Of a DNA stretch of 59,509 nt, positions 1 to 6,770 are shown in pieces. This DNA is from Capnocytophaga cynodegmi DSM 19736 (GTDB lineage Bacteria; Bacteroidota; Bacteroidia; Flavobacteriales; Flavobacteriaceae). The notes under the pieces were generated by a model. It was not told where the DNA came from and searched no databases. It saw only the letters and a list, made by a program, of their open reading frames with translations. The position numbers and the translations under genes are program-made. The DNA is taken from positions 95 to 59,603 of the forward strand of contig NZ_KB900736.1 of the NCBI RefSeq assembly GCF_000379185.1. The letters run 5' to 3'. Numbering within the stretch: the first letter of the stretch is position 1; the number at the start of each line of letters is the position of its first letter.

Positions 1-33
1 GTTGTAAATTGCTTTCAATTTTCCGTAACTTTG
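1..33 (+). promoter_or_regulatory. Promoter embedded in the CRISPR repeat
   Basis: TAACTTTG at 26-33 fits the Bacteroidetes -7 consensus TAnnTTTG. TTG at 2-4 sits 21 nt upstream as the -33 element. A start 6-8 nt further on would fall near base 40, so a transcript would begin in the last few bases of the repeat and run into the next spacer. This resembles the repeat-borne crRNA promoters known in Neisseria meningitidis type II-C. In this terminal copy it would fire into the terminator at 52-86. Confidence 0.6.
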
Positions 34-47
34 TGATTAGTTACAAC
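1..47 (+). CRISPR. Terminal repeat of a type II-C CRISPR array (rest of array lies left of the window)
   Basis: A 47-nt unit with 7-bp terminal inverted repeats, GTTGTAA at 1-7 and TTACAAC at 41-47. This is the size and end structure usual for Bacteroidetes type II-C repeats. Positions 2-16 are exactly complementary to the 5' end of the tracrRNA at 6603-6617, which fixes the crRNA strand as plus. Only one copy is visible, so spacers and array length cannot be read. The array is transcribed rightwards, towards cas2, and this is its last repeat in the direction of transcription. Calling it a repeat rests on the anti-repeat match and the cas genes next to it. Confidence 0.85.
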
Positions 48-1394: not shown

Positions 1395-2090
1395 CTATTT
1401 TTTAATCTCGAAAACGCCATCTCTTTCTAAATCAATGAAACCTCCTTCGTAGCCACACTCCCCCATTCTTGGTGAATTTACAACAGGCATCGAAGCATAA
1501 TCTAAAAAACCTTCACATTCTTTTTCGTGAATTTCAGCACAAGATTCACAGAAAAAATGAGGCTGGTCTTCATACAAATGAGCCACGCATAAATGAACAG
1601 CTGGAAGTTTTTTACATTTTTGACAATAAATTTCTAAAGGTTCATTTCTGCTCAAAAGCAAAACTTTACTTTTTACCCCCATAGGATATTCTTCTTCCAC
1701 CTTTATTTGGAGATCTGTTGTAGAACCAAAATCATACTCATATTCCAATACATCACCTTTATTTAAGGCGTCTTTAAGTTTTTTGGACATTCCTAATTTT
1801 CCTCCCCCCTTATACGCAAAAGCACTCAAATGACCGCAACAATCCAACAAAATATCCCTCAAAAAACGATCTACTTTCTTCATCGTGGTCTCTCCATCTA
1901 CCAACAGATAAAGAAAATAATTGGAATTTTTGTAATTAGGATAAGTAAATATTTTTAATAAATATGATTTTTTATCCTTATCACCTTCCGTTTTTGACAA
2001 TTCTTTTAAATGCTTTTTGAGGTGGGTATTGATGTTACTTTTAGCAACCAACTCTTCACAAAAAAAGCATTTTCCTGTTATATTTTCCAT
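1395..2090 (-). CDS. Zinc-finger protein with pRiA4b ORF-3-like domain, inside the cas operon
   Basis: 231 aa, not a known Cas protein. Residues 8-27 hold Cys8-x2-Cys11 and His23-x3-His27, a possible C2H2-type finger. Residues about 45-135 resemble the pRiA4b ORF-3 fold (PF07929), with the signature segment DVLEYEYDFGSTTDLQI around 113-129. A Cys-rich C-terminus follows (CQKC 156-159, Cys168, CESC 181-184, Cys192), likely a second metal site. It lies 74 nt after cas9 and 6 nt before cas1 on the same strand. The function is unknown. Its place suggests an accessory role in adaptation or regulation, but it could equally be a passenger gene. The domain assignment is from motif recognition only. 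Confidence 0.75.
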   Translation of the reverse strand: MENITGKCFFCEELVAKSNINTHLKKHLKELSKTEGDKDKKSYLLKIFTYPNYKNSNYFLYLLVDGETTMKKVDRFLRDILLDCCGHLSAFAYKGGGKLGMSKKLKDALNKGDVLEYEYDFGSTTDLQIKVEEEYPMGVKSKVLLLSRNEPLEIYCQKCKKLPAVHLCVAHLYEDQPHFFCESCAEIHEKECEGFLDYASMPVVNSPRMGECGYEGGFIDLERDGVFEIKK

Positions 2091-2164
2091 TTATTAATTT
2101 ATTTTAAAATCTTTTGTATAAATTCTTCCACATCATTTATTTTACATTTTATTGAATAGGTATA

Positions 2165-5100
2165 TCAATACTCCCCTACACTAACAATGTCCCCTAAATG
2201 ATTGATGCGGACTTTAATTATATTTTTTATATGATTTAAAGATAACCTTTTATAAGTCATATCTTTAGTAGCTGATTTTGTTTCCACCGTAGTTTCTAAA
2301 TGATGTCTAAACCAATAATCTCCGGTAGCCAACTTTTGTACCCTAAATAAATTCGGGCTTATTATTTTCTTGTTTTTAGGGTCTAATAAATCAATATCGT
2401 TAGGATTAAATCCTGTTGATTCATTCGGGAAGACAAACATTTCATTCTGTTTCATTGAGAACAAAAATTCCCAACCCAAATACTGATTGTATGTTTTGTC
2501 TATTATTGGCAAACCTTGATTAGCTCTTACCACAGCTTCAAAAACCGATACTACTTTTTCTTGTAAATTTCCCTTCTCATCACGGTAAACCGCTACGTGG
2601 TGATTGCTGCCCGTACTGATAAAATCCACAGGAATAGGCTTACCTTCTTTATCCAAAATTTCTTTGCCTAAATGGTCTTTTTTGGTATGCAAAGGCTCGG
2701 CATTTGCTACACCGCTTATGGTTACACGCTTTATCGCAATTCCTTTCTCTTTATTGAGCCATATCGGATTTTTCTCTAAATCAGAAAAGGCTTTTTTAGC
2801 ATCGTTTCCAAAAGATTGTAGTCGTTCTTTCAAAATTCTTTTCACCCCTTCGTCTAATATTTTGTCGATTAACTTTTCATCTTTAAAGTTTTCAGGAGTA
2901 ATGTCTTTTCGAATGGAAAAACTATTTTCTAACCATACCAATTTCACTTTTTCAGGCAGTTGTTCTGTTTGGGCTTCATCTAAATAAATAGGATTTTTCG
3001 CCAATGAATTTTTACCTGTAAAAGCCTTTTTCGGATCGCCGCCATTTTCTTCTAATCTCTTTTTCAACAAGGATTGATACAGTGGATTGGCTACTTTTTC
3101 TATAGTCTCCAAATCAAATTTACCTCCGATTTTTTCCTCTTTTTGTACATAATACTGGTATTTTCCATAAATTGTTTCTTTATGCAATTGTCCGCGAGGA
3201 GTTAAAACTTCCTGAACTTTGTTATTTCCCGAAATTTTATTCTTGTTTTTGGTAACTACCTTATTTTTAGCCTTATGAGAAATTAAAACATTTTCCAAAA
3301 AGGCTTTGGCTACCTGACGGAAATTGGGCATTGGAGCTTTAAAAATTCGTTTTTCATTACCATTTTCATCGGTTACTTTTATGGTTTCCAATTGTTGTAT
3401 CGCCATAATGTTGTTATGCTCCTTATGTTTTTCATTTTTACGAGCATTTAGATAATTAAGGTATTGAATATGATTGTGCTTGGTAAAAGCAACCGTAAGA
3501 GCATCCATTGCGTGATGGCGGAGGTCATTTCGTTTAGTCCAATCGGTGATGACTTCCACTTGCTGACCATATTTGCGGTCTTCCATTTTGGTAAGTCCCA
3601 AAGCTCTGTATTTCGGCAAGTTGAGTTCTTTCATCACATTGATTAAATCCCAATCTTCCCTCAATCTATCTGTAATACCTCCCGATGTAGAAAGCACACT
3701 GCGAGTGATTTGTAAAAGAATCTCTTTGGCTTTTTTAGCAATGTATTGTGTTTCACGCAAATCTCTTTCCACAAAACCATCTCCGATTTCACTTTCTTTT
3801 TTCAATAATTTTTTATACTTAGAATCAGATATTCCTTTTTCCTCAACTTTTTTCAATGGATTTCTCCTATTATGCAATCTACTAGGTTTTCCTATTTCGT
3901 ATAAATTTTCTATTCTAGAAAGAAACTCTTCCAATTGCTTTTCACCCAAACTTTCTATATAATCATACGCAGTTCGCTCACCTTTTTCTAAATTCGTTTT
4001 TCTATAAGTAATCGTTTTATTTGAAAAACTATCATCAAACACTCTTGCTTTAGGTATAATATGCTCTATATCAATTTCTTTACTAAATAATTTCTCTCTT
4101 GGAATGTAATCTCCTTTATACAAATCTTTATATCCATTATCTTTCAACTCTTCATACAAGCGATAACGGATAATATCATTTCTTGTTGGATTTGGTAAGC
4201 CAAACTCATTCTTCAAAATTTTAATGATTTTCTCGTGTTCAGTTTTCGCTTTATTGATGTTTGCCGTCATATTGGCTCTTTCTTCCGCCTTTTTTTTCAG
4301 TTCACGAGCCAATTCTATACGAATTTCATCGAATTTAAAGTTAGGGTTTTCGGTTCGGTATTTCTTTAAAAGTGCATTGACTAAGTTAATCATCTGATTT
4401 AGAATCTTTTCTACTACCGGTTGGCGCAAACTATTCTTTTTCAAGACTTCCAAACTATCTTTCAGCACACGCTTTTCATTTTCTTCTTTGGTCAATGAAT
4501 GTTTAGAATGCTTATAACCAGCAAATTCACAAGCACTTGGTTCATCAGGTCTATCTTTTCGTCCTGTGAAAGGAAAACCTTGTTTCAAATGAGTGATAAT
4601 TTCCCGCATCGCTTTGGTAGAAAGATTACCATAATCATCTGACAGAGAAACATTCGCTAAAATTTGAGCATACTCTTTTTTAAAACCGAATTTTGTTTCT
4701 AACAATTTATAAAGCAATTCGTTACCACTTTTAGAATCATCGCCTTCATAAGAATACAGCAAATGCCAAAGCTGATAACTTGCTTGATTTTCAAAATCTT
4801 TACCGTCTAATTCAGCATTGAAATGCAGAATATCCGTGTTGATACCTGCCTCTTTAAAAATCGCTTGAACCATATCCTTGATTTCCGATGCAGGAACTTT
4901 CAAATCATCAAGCTCCACCTCATCTTTATTCAATTTTACTTTGAGGTGATTTTTTGCATCATATCCCTCTAAATCAGTAATTTTCAAATATGCTTCGTAT
5001 AATGCTTTATTTGTTCTATTGCCCTCCAAAATGGAATAATTCATCTCCCATTCTTTGGGAGAATAGCCTAAAATTTCCAAGCAATAATCCGCTTTGAGAT

Positions 5101-6511
5101 TTCCTTTGAGATTTAACTCATTAAATAATGCTTGTTTTGCCTCCAAATCCAATTCGGAAATTGTTTTTTCTTCTTCAAAAAGAACTGCTTGTTGATTTTT
5201 AGCTACTTTTTTCGTTTTACTTCCTTTTTTACGAATCAAGACATTGTTTAAATTCTGCCAAATTTTAAACTCTTGAAACAGAGGCGATGATTTTGGAGCT
5301 ACTTTAAGACCGATTACTTTTTTAGTAGTCGTTCCATCTTCATTTTTAATCTCTATTTCCTTATTTTCGAACTCACAGAAACTCACCAATGATTTTTGAG
5401 ATTTTAATTTTCTTTGGTAGAAAATCACCACATCTCGAAGTTCTTTTTTTAGTTCGTCGGTCAAAATTTCAGGATAAAAAGCGGATTGTGTTTTCCAAAT
5501 TTGTTCAAATTCATCTAAATAATCTTGGCGATAAAACACCTGATTTTTCAACGAATTATGCGGATTTGCTGCAATTTGTTTCCAAAGATATTCGCCCACG
5601 GTTTCATTGTTGAAGTAAAGTTCCTTACTTCGGTCTGAAATTGCTCCCAAATAACCACTGGAATTATTTAAATTATTATTGATTTCGGTGATGACAAAAG
5701 CCAATTCTTCCCTTGTCAATTCCTTTGAGAGCGCATCTACTCGCCATTGATAGGCTTGTAATTTTTTATCTTCCCTACTTCCTTTATTTTCAGCAGTATA
5801 GATTTGGTATTTTGCCAAAAACAAAGCACTGGTTGCCCTTTGTCCTTTACCTTTAAGTTGAGCGTAAAATTCATCGGTCAAAATATCCGAATGAGATTGT
5901 TTCTGAAAGTTCCAAACTTTATCCAATTCAAACTGTAAATCAGAACGATAATAGTCAGGTAATGATTTTTTACCTTCTTTTAAAAGTTGTAGAGATAATT
6001 GTCCCGTAGTAAGGTTTTCTTCATAAAGTCTTTTGGCAATTTCCATTCCGTCTATCAGTTGCCCTTCGTCTTCATTTTTAGCTTTTCGACTACTTTTATA
6101 ACCTCTTTTTTTATTAATCGTTAAAAAAACACGAGCCAACTCTTCCAAAGATATTTTTTCTTTAGCCGATTTTGCTCGTAATTCTAATGTTTGGAAGGTG
6201 GTTCCTTTACCGTTTTCTGTTAAAATTGTATTTTCAGAAATGAGTTGATGTTCTTTCAAAAGTTCGATGAGTTCTTTTCTACGGAGCTTATAGCGTTGCA
6301 GGTTGCGTCTAGCACTTCGTTTCAGGGTTCTATCGGCATTGGTAGAAATGGGCTTCCCTTTCTCGAAATTTGTTTTTTCATCGGTTGTTAGCGGATTAAC
6401 CCGAACACCAACATCCACAATTTCTGATTGTTCATTATCATTTTGAGCTTCTTTTACAACTGCCCAACCAATAGAGTTGGTCCCCAAATCAAGACCGAGT
6501 ATATGTTTCAT
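2165..6511 (-). CDS. cas9: Type II-C CRISPR effector nuclease Cas9
   Basis: 1448 aa, long for subtype II-C but usual for Bacteroidetes members. It is the RNA-guided DNA endonuclease that uses the tracrRNA encoded upstream. All catalytic motifs are intact: RuvC-I LGLDLGTNSIGWAVV with Asp8, an Arg-rich bridge helix (ADRTLKRSARRNLQRYKLRR) around 60-80, RuvC-II IRIELAREL with Glu733, HNH motif DIEHIIPKA with His817, and RuvC-III LRHHAMDA with His999, His1000 and Asp1003. Insertions in the recognition lobe account for the length. First gene of the cas operon, divergent from tracrRNA. In-frame codons continue past the TGA with protein-like sequence (see findings). The PAM cannot be inferred from sequence. 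Confidence 0.97.
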   Translation of the reverse strand: MKHILGLDLGTNSIGWAVVKEAQNDNEQSEIVDVGVRVNPLTTDEKTNFEKGKPISTNADRTLKRSARRNLQRYKLRRKELIELLKEHQLISENTILTENGKGTTFQTLELRAKSAKEKISLEELARVFLTINKKRGYKSSRKAKNEDEGQLIDGMEIAKRLYEENLTTGQLSLQLLKEGKKSLPDYYRSDLQFELDKVWNFQKQSHSDILTDEFYAQLKGKGQRATSALFLAKYQIYTAENKGSREDKKLQAYQWRVDALSKELTREELAFVITEINNNLNNSSGYLGAISDRSKELYFNNETVGEYLWKQIAANPHNSLKNQVFYRQDYLDEFEQIWKTQSAFYPEILTDELKKELRDVVIFYQRKLKSQKSLVSFCEFENKEIEIKNEDGTTTKKVIGLKVAPKSSPLFQEFKIWQNLNNVLIRKKGSKTKKVAKNQQAVLFEEEKTISELDLEAKQALFNELNLKGNLKADYCLEILGYSPKEWEMNYSILEGNRTNKALYEAYLKITDLEGYDAKNHLKVKLNKDEVELDDLKVPASEIKDMVQAIFKEAGINTDILHFNAELDGKDFENQASYQLWHLLYSYEGDDSKSGNELLYKLLETKFGFKKEYAQILANVSLSDDYGNLSTKAMREIITHLKQGFPFTGRKDRPDEPSACEFAGYKHSKHSLTKEENEKRVLKDSLEVLKKNSLRQPVVEKILNQMINLVNALLKKYRTENPNFKFDEIRIELARELKKKAEERANMTANINKAKTEHEKIIKILKNEFGLPNPTRNDIIRYRLYEELKDNGYKDLYKGDYIPREKLFSKEIDIEHIIPKARVFDDSFSNKTITYRKTNLEKGERTAYDYIESLGEKQLEEFLSRIENLYEIGKPSRLHNRRNPLKKVEEKGISDSKYKKLLKKESEIGDGFVERDLRETQYIAKKAKEILLQITRSVLSTSGGITDRLREDWDLINVMKELNLPKYRALGLTKMEDRKYGQQVEVITDWTKRNDLRHHAMDALTVAFTKHNHIQYLNYLNARKNEKHKEHNNIMAIQQLETIKVTDENGNEKRIFKAPMPNFRQVAKAFLENVLISHKAKNKVVTKNKNKISGNNKVQEVLTPRGQLHKETIYGKYQYYVQKEEKIGGKFDLETIEKVANPLYQSLLKKRLEENGGDPKKAFTGKNSLAKNPIYLDEAQTEQLPEKVKLVWLENSFSIRKDITPENFKDEKLIDKILDEGVKRILKERLQSFGNDAKKAFSDLEKNPIWLNKEKGIAIKRVTISGVANAEPLHTKKDHLGKEILDKEGKPIPVDFISTGSNHHVAVYRDEKGNLQEKVVSVFEAVVRANQGLPIIDKTYNQYLGWEFLFSMKQNEMFVFPNESTGFNPNDIDLLDPKNKKIISPNLFRVQKLATGDYWFRHHLETTVETKSATKDMTYKRLSLNHIKNIIKVRINHLGDIVSVGEY

Positions 6512-6566
6512 AATTAATAGTTTAAAAATTAATGGGTATAAAAATACAAATAAAAAGTTAATTATT

Positions 6567-6597
6567 TTTGATATTCAATTATTTTTTTCTATCTTTG
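6567..6597 (+). promoter_or_regulatory. tracrRNA promoter
   Basis: TTTG at 6567-6570, a 19-nt spacer, then TATCTTTG at 6590-6597: a full match to the Bacteroidetes -33/-7 consensus. The predicted start, 6-8 nt downstream, coincides with the first base of the anti-repeat at 6603. The unit lies in the cas9 5' region and points away from cas9. Confidence 0.8.
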
Positions 6598-6602
6598 TAG
6601 CA

Positions 6603-6675
6603 GAAAGCAATTTACAATAAGGATTATTCCGTTGTGAAAACATCTAGCGCCTCGCCTATCTGCGGGGCTTTTTAT
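6603..6675 (+). ncRNA. tracrRNA of the type II-C system
   Basis: Anti-repeat GAAAGCAATTTACAA at 6603-6617 is the exact reverse complement of repeat positions 2-16; one more U-G pair is possible at 6618. A short nexus-like hairpin follows (GGA-TTAT-TCC, 6621-6630), then a linker. The 3' end is a 7-bp terminator stem (6649-6655 with 6662-6668, one G-U pair, loop CTATCT) followed by five T. The transcript would be about 73 nt and would begin with the anti-repeat, so it may need no 5' processing. Confidence 0.88.
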
Positions 6676-6770
6676 TTCTACATTCTTCTAAAAAAAATTG
6701 ATTAACAAATGATTATACAGTAGTTCATTTCTAATATACACAAAAGCTATTTTAAAAACATCTAAAAATA

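Follow-up and report, generated by a model that had tools for sequence, protein, structure and literature searches.

Accessory genes tied to the Cas9 of subtype II-C CRISPR loci have been described. The pro-CRISPR factor PcrIIC1, which occurs in some II-C loci, is a (predicted) PIN-domain, Cas9-binding protein in the accessible portions of PMC12669027 and PMC13153721, and the latter names CbCas9 as its partner. Exchange of cas9 in place is known for the II-C loci of Flavobacteriales (legend to Extended Data Fig. 9 of PMC12669027) and for F. psychrophilum (PMC10309648, in part), and such in situ shuffling puts near-identical cas1-cas2 genes next to distant cas9 genes. The portions of these two accounts accessible to us mention no extra gene between cas9 and cas1, whereas the locus described here has one, which we call x231. 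Two protein families resemble its product: PRiA4_ORF3 (PF07929; MM3350, PDB 2i1s) and SNAPC3/SNAP50 (snRNA-activating complex subunit 3, PF12251), a eukaryotic protein that acts in a complex.

We analyzed a 59,509-nucleotide stretch of contig NZ_KB900736.1, hereafter the window, in which the gene order is cas9-x231-cas1-cas2 in a subtype II-C locus adjoining a CRISPR repeat. On the minus strand lie cas9 (positions 2165 to 6511; 1448 aa; TIGR01865, 1.8e-136), x231 (1395 to 2090), the type II cas1 (495 to 1388; TIGR03639, 9e-86) and cas2 (160 to 498; TIGR01573, 2.6e-17). The repeat on the cas2 side of the array (1 to 47, plus strand) occurs four more times on contig C3 of this genome, whose array, broken by contig ends, holds at least 5 repeats. 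CbCas9 is the best PDB sequence match of the window's Cas9. The sequence-only reading of this DNA had noted a 231-aa open reading frame between cas9 and cas1, 6 nt before cas1, and we found the same: x231 is a real open reading frame that starts 74 nt after the cas9 stop, ends 6 nt ahead of cas1 and runs in the direction of the operon. Judged by this locus, Bergeyella zoohelcum ATCC 43767 is the closest relative with a name, showing 98% identity for x231, 99% for cas1 and 100% over the 96 aligned residues of cas2.

The predicted model of x231 has three parts, all encoded on the minus strand: a C2-H2 finger at the N terminus, a core folded like 2i1s and, toward the C terminus, a Cys ribbon. In the finger (C-x2-C-x11-H-x3-H; residues 8 to 27, positions 2010 to 2069), C8, C11 and H23 are invariant in 14 of 14 members and H27 is nearly invariant in the 13-member alignment A1. 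The core spans residues 38 to 150 (1641 to 1979) in the predicted structure, and in the ribbon (residues 156 to 188, 1527 to 1625) C156, C159, C181 and C184 are invariant. A family signature, VNSPRMGxCGYxG, follows in the family alignments at residues 204 to 216 (1443 to 1481). The product of x231 is a small, probably zinc-binding protein. Residue 81 is Leu in the window's x231 and Trp in nearly all relatives, ATCC 43767 included.

The core of x231 shares the fold of PRiA4_ORF3, yet its PF07929 score of 19.2 bits lies below the gathering cut-off of 26.6 bits; 7 of the 13 members of A1 match PF07929 at E up to 1, and the best of 10 members scanned singly, L104, reaches 26.3 bits. The finger, the Cys ribbon and the NSPRMGxCGY signature are additions relative to PRiA4_ORF3. 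The resemblance to SNAPC3 extends over nearly the full length of the model (12 to 16% identity, rmsd 4.5 to 4.8; VIA-align), whereas the Pfam model PF12251 is not reached: it is absent from the Pfam matches of x231 with E up to 10, and among the 13 members only L007 gives a weak match, over the part corresponding to the ribbon (E 0.028; 14.5 bits against a cut-off of 23.8). The fold link to SNAPC3 is distant; if it holds, it would suggest that this eukaryotic promoter factor has a relative among prokaryotes. No family in the PADLOC-DB defense models matched x231 at E up to 1, and searches of the PDB sequences with x231, with its profiles and with the L007 member found nothing significantly related. 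The description of x231 as a putative metal-binding, pRiA4b-like protein inside a cas operon thus stands, with none of the scanned family models above its cut-off.

Among 20 Bergeyella genomes, x231 is present in two (the window's own and G774) and cas1 in eight. In the six cas1-bearing genomes without x231, which include G784 with a broken cas1 and G778 with a partial one, about 4 to 35 nt separate cas9 from cas1. Two of the six, G775 and G789, carry nearly the same locus as the window: over the full length, their cas9 genes share 90% and 93% identity with that of the window, cas1 is 98% identical in both, cas2 is 100% and 99% identical, and cas9 is separated from cas1 by 17 nt. BLAST breakpoints place the stretch without counterpart in these otherwise matching loci at 1407 to 2163, its edges being uncertain by some bases. 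To the eye, the 73 nt upstream of x231 (2091 to 2163, minus strand) could be the 3' end of a further open reading frame, and a search of the 20 genomes found no donor for them. The arrays comprise 44 repeats in G775 and at least 49 in G789. Since a nearly equal locus has a long array in the absence of x231, the gene is dispensable for long arrays, and from the length of these arrays we infer that the G775 and G789 loci work. A role for x231 in the CRISPR system, as proposed by the sequence-only reading, finds no support in these near relatives.

The gene is likewise not tied to one kind of Cas9. The x231-cas1-cas2 block of the window recurs in ATCC 43767 and G774, where it adjoins a different cas9, with about 26 to 39% identity in aligned pieces between the ATCC 43767-type and window-type genes, as in the in situ cas9 shuffling described above. 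The occurrence of x231 beside two distant cas9 types indicates that x231 and cas9 type combine independently. The array of G774, a single-contig genome, consists of 2 perfect repeats plus one degenerate copy; array length is sharply unequal between G774 and the G775 and G789 loci (L119, L120 and L121), and all three genomes have a cas1 with 98% identity to that of the window.

We then examined 139 cas1 loci (77 from 397 genomes of the family, 7 from genus-mates and 55 more from a draw of the phylum, repeats dropped). In 103 loci cas9 adjoined cas1, and in the other 36 no cas9 was visible in the stretch examined. The gap between the two genes was at most 150 nt in 86 of these 103 Bacteroidota junctions (median, 3) and larger in 17. 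Only two of the 103 junctions, those of the window's genome and G774, held x231, which is accordingly not a core gene of subtype II-C.

The coding sequence of x231 looks constrained. Between the window and ATCC 43767 there are 7 synonymous and 4 replacement codons (dN 0.007 against dS 0.056), values that look like purifying selection. The dS of cas1 in the same comparison is 0.224, and the locus is therefore probably a mosaic. The codon GC3 is 0.276 for x231, 0.286 for cas9 and 0.453 for cas1; low GC3 is common to x231 and cas9, and composition therefore does not single x231 out. In the G774 copy (L119, 7603 to 8320), a homopolymer near the start is one base longer, which puts the first codons and the N-terminal finger out of frame; this frameshift may be real or a sequencing error.

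Outside Bergeyella we considered 22 family loci (L007 to L016, L099, L100, L103 to L105, L127 and L218 to L223), which include a C-terminal fragment (L016) and a partial match (L223) and exclude distant plasmid relatives. Such genes are sparse: they occurred in 3 of the 299 genomes drawn from the taxonomic family, in 2 of the 395 drawn from the phylum and in 7 of 244 genomes belonging to the class of G501. The flanks, several of them short, were searched by tblastn with the window's Cas9, Cas1 and Cas2, a search that detects only relatives of these proteins. Cas genes were near one of the 22, L013 of Flavobacterium sp. ZT3R18, where the x231 relative lies beyond the array and not in the cas9-cas1 gap. 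Within the flanks searched, none of the 22 relatives lies between cas9 and cas1 or adjoins cas1. Homologues thus lie mostly away from cas genes, and the gene is missing from the nearly equal, presumably working loci of G775 and G789. The sequence-only reading had named each of these two outcomes as refuting a CRISPR role, which is left without support, while the anatomy given in that reading is upheld.

Six of the 22 relatives lie in or beside defense loci. In L009 and L012 the relative is inside a type I restriction system, with hsdS on one side and hsdM on the other, and in L009 two small or medium open reading frames separate it from hsdM; in L103 it is directly 3' of Drt3a-Drt3b, in L105 near PglZ-BrxL and in L014 near two ThsB-like TIR genes, and the II-C locus is the defense neighbor in L013. 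The L103 locus (2360 to 6681) is on a contig from a viral collection, which bears a type I restriction-type helicase gene as well. Three loci are on viral contigs, one beside DRT3, one beside BREX genes and one, L104, beside phage terminase genes. The other 16 relatives have no clear defense neighbor among the matches listed, and some are uncertain: an SNF2 helicase gene is directly upstream of the relative in L007 (3080 to 6683; ZorD and DpdE models, best 1.4e-66), a PDC-S70 candidate-defense gene is about 4 kb away in L008 (6.3e-56), and L010 has a DprA-like gene matching ShosA (3.1e-60). The neighbors were scanned in sets of 62 (best 25 of 125 families), 28 and 52 (best 25 of 29), the 52 being a subset of the 62, and among the matches listed the pooled scans gave further single matches, e.g., MkoA (2.7e-51), mad2 and mad3. 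These uncertain matches leave the count of six clear cases as it stands. In a tree of 20 members, several forks of which are weak, x231 and the defense-linked members do not form one group. The idea of a pure defense-island family is weakened by the 16 relatives without clear defense neighbors. An identity as a phage anti-CRISPR was also considered and set aside, with no match in 50,697 phage records.

We consider it probable that x231 is optional cargo, under selection for its own job and not needed for CRISPR immunity. We observed that near relatives with long arrays have an empty site, that the gene occurs beside different cas9 genes, that its coding sequence is constrained and that its homologues are scattered. 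The GC3 difference from cas1, the out-of-frame start of the G774 copy and the six defense-linked relatives also speak for this reading, tempered by the low GC3 of cas9 and by the chance of a sequencing error in G774. Because 86 of the 103 junctions are tight, the empty state is the likelier ancestor and gain, not loss, is the probable direction: in some Bergeyella lineage, about 0.75 kb with x231 would have entered a II-C locus, in the spacer between its cas9 and cas1. The gene would probably be expressed by read-through of the cas operon and kept by purifying selection for its own job, CRISPR immunity being independent of it. That job may be that of an autonomous adaptor, binding nucleic acid or protein through the zinc modules and the PRiA4/SNAPC3-like core. 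Since relatives recur in defense operons, x231 may perhaps act against phage, a suggestion weakened by the 16 of 22 relatives without a clear defense neighbor. Against cargo, x231 is within the operon, co-directional and 6 nt ahead of cas1, and both x231-bearing lineages retain it although their cas9 genes differ. Carriage by a transposon was dismissed, as no duplication, inverted ends or donor was seen; the ends were judged by eye, and the search for transposon ends, repeats and a donor for x231 found none. The locus offers a natural comparison in which an extra gene in a cas operon can be dispensable cargo, and it counsels caution in guilt-by-association calls.

Three roles within the CRISPR system were weighed against optional cargo. 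A role as an optional partner of Cas1-Cas2 that modulates spacer acquisition, tending to hold it back, is rather unlikely. The gene does lie on the cas1 side of the cas9-exchange point and travels with cas1-cas2, and the array of the x231-bearing G774 is far shorter than those of G775 and G789; the numbers are tiny, however, and confounded with Cas9 type, and the G774 copy may be broken. Moreover, the window's genome has x231 and yet at least 5 repeats in an array broken by contig ends, loci without x231 clearly acquire spacers, and, within the flanks searched, the 22 relatives outside Bergeyella do not adjoin cas1. A DNA-binding operon regulator, with the cas promoter or the leader of the array as its target, would fit the two Cys/His modules and the likeness, over nearly the full length, to the promoter-binding subunit SNAPC3, and we hold it to be quite improbable: none of the 14 members of alignment A2 is net positive (net charge, -11.9 to 0.0), the SNAPC3 fold link is distant with a weak Pfam match in one of 13 members, and the relatives lie in unrelated operons.

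We regard as very improbable a Cas9 partner like PcrIIC1 that enhances target binding. Like PcrIIC1, x231 is an additional gene associated with Cas9 loci of subtype II-C, and it adjoins a large II-C Cas9 whose best PDB match, CbCas9, is the PcrIIC1 partner. PcrIIC1 combines a PIN domain with Cas9 binding in the accessible portions of the papers cited above, whereas a Pfam scan at E up to 10 gave no PIN match for x231, whose presence does not track the type of Cas9. A Cas9-specific partner was dropped as the leading idea because x231 accompanies two distant Cas9s (about 26 to 39% identity) and is missing next to the close ones (90% and 93%).

Optional cargo leaves the site itself to be considered, since x231 is inserted in a slot that other genes use too. 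The 17 filled junctions hold x231 in 2, Y1 transposases or their remains, of what we take to be the REP type (RAYT), in 12 and other genes in 3, and in all 17 the longest open frame is co-directional with the cas genes. One of the three others, in a genome of another genus (G041; L019, 872 to 1459), is a canonical PRiA4_ORF3 gene (PF07929, 6.1e-48), which is not a close relative of x231 and lacks the finger, the Cys ribbon and the signature; the remaining two are an HTH_3 gene (L028) and a 285-aa open reading frame (L149). It is doubtful that the cas9-cas1 gap of Bacteroidota II-C loci is an accessory slot recurrently capturing small proteins of nucleic-acid-binding fold (REP-type Y1 transposases for the most part, besides pRiA4-type proteins and x231) that tune Cas1-Cas2 adaptation, with x231 as a SNAPC3 relative working on CRISPR or phage DNA. 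The slot is nevertheless a more interesting lead than x231 itself: it is filled mainly by transposases, often single-copy, which raises the question of whether adaptation modules recruit transposase-like partners.

Among the transposase junctions, L024 and L053 gave weak Y1_Tnp matches below the cut-off, L047, L051, L052 and L056 resemble the L024 and L053 transposases, and L159, L165 and L175 had matches in a transposase search; L146, L018 and L038 read, from their sequences, as Y1/REP-type transposases or remains. A search with one query protein found no copy of the transposase in G000, G774 or G775. In nine genomes with a transposase junction, an extra-copy search, also with one query protein, returned the junction copy as the sole match in six (E of at most 1e-10), a tandem pair at the junction only in G700, and one further copy each in G162 and G312. 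In the L047 transposase the usual HUH motif lacks its first His.
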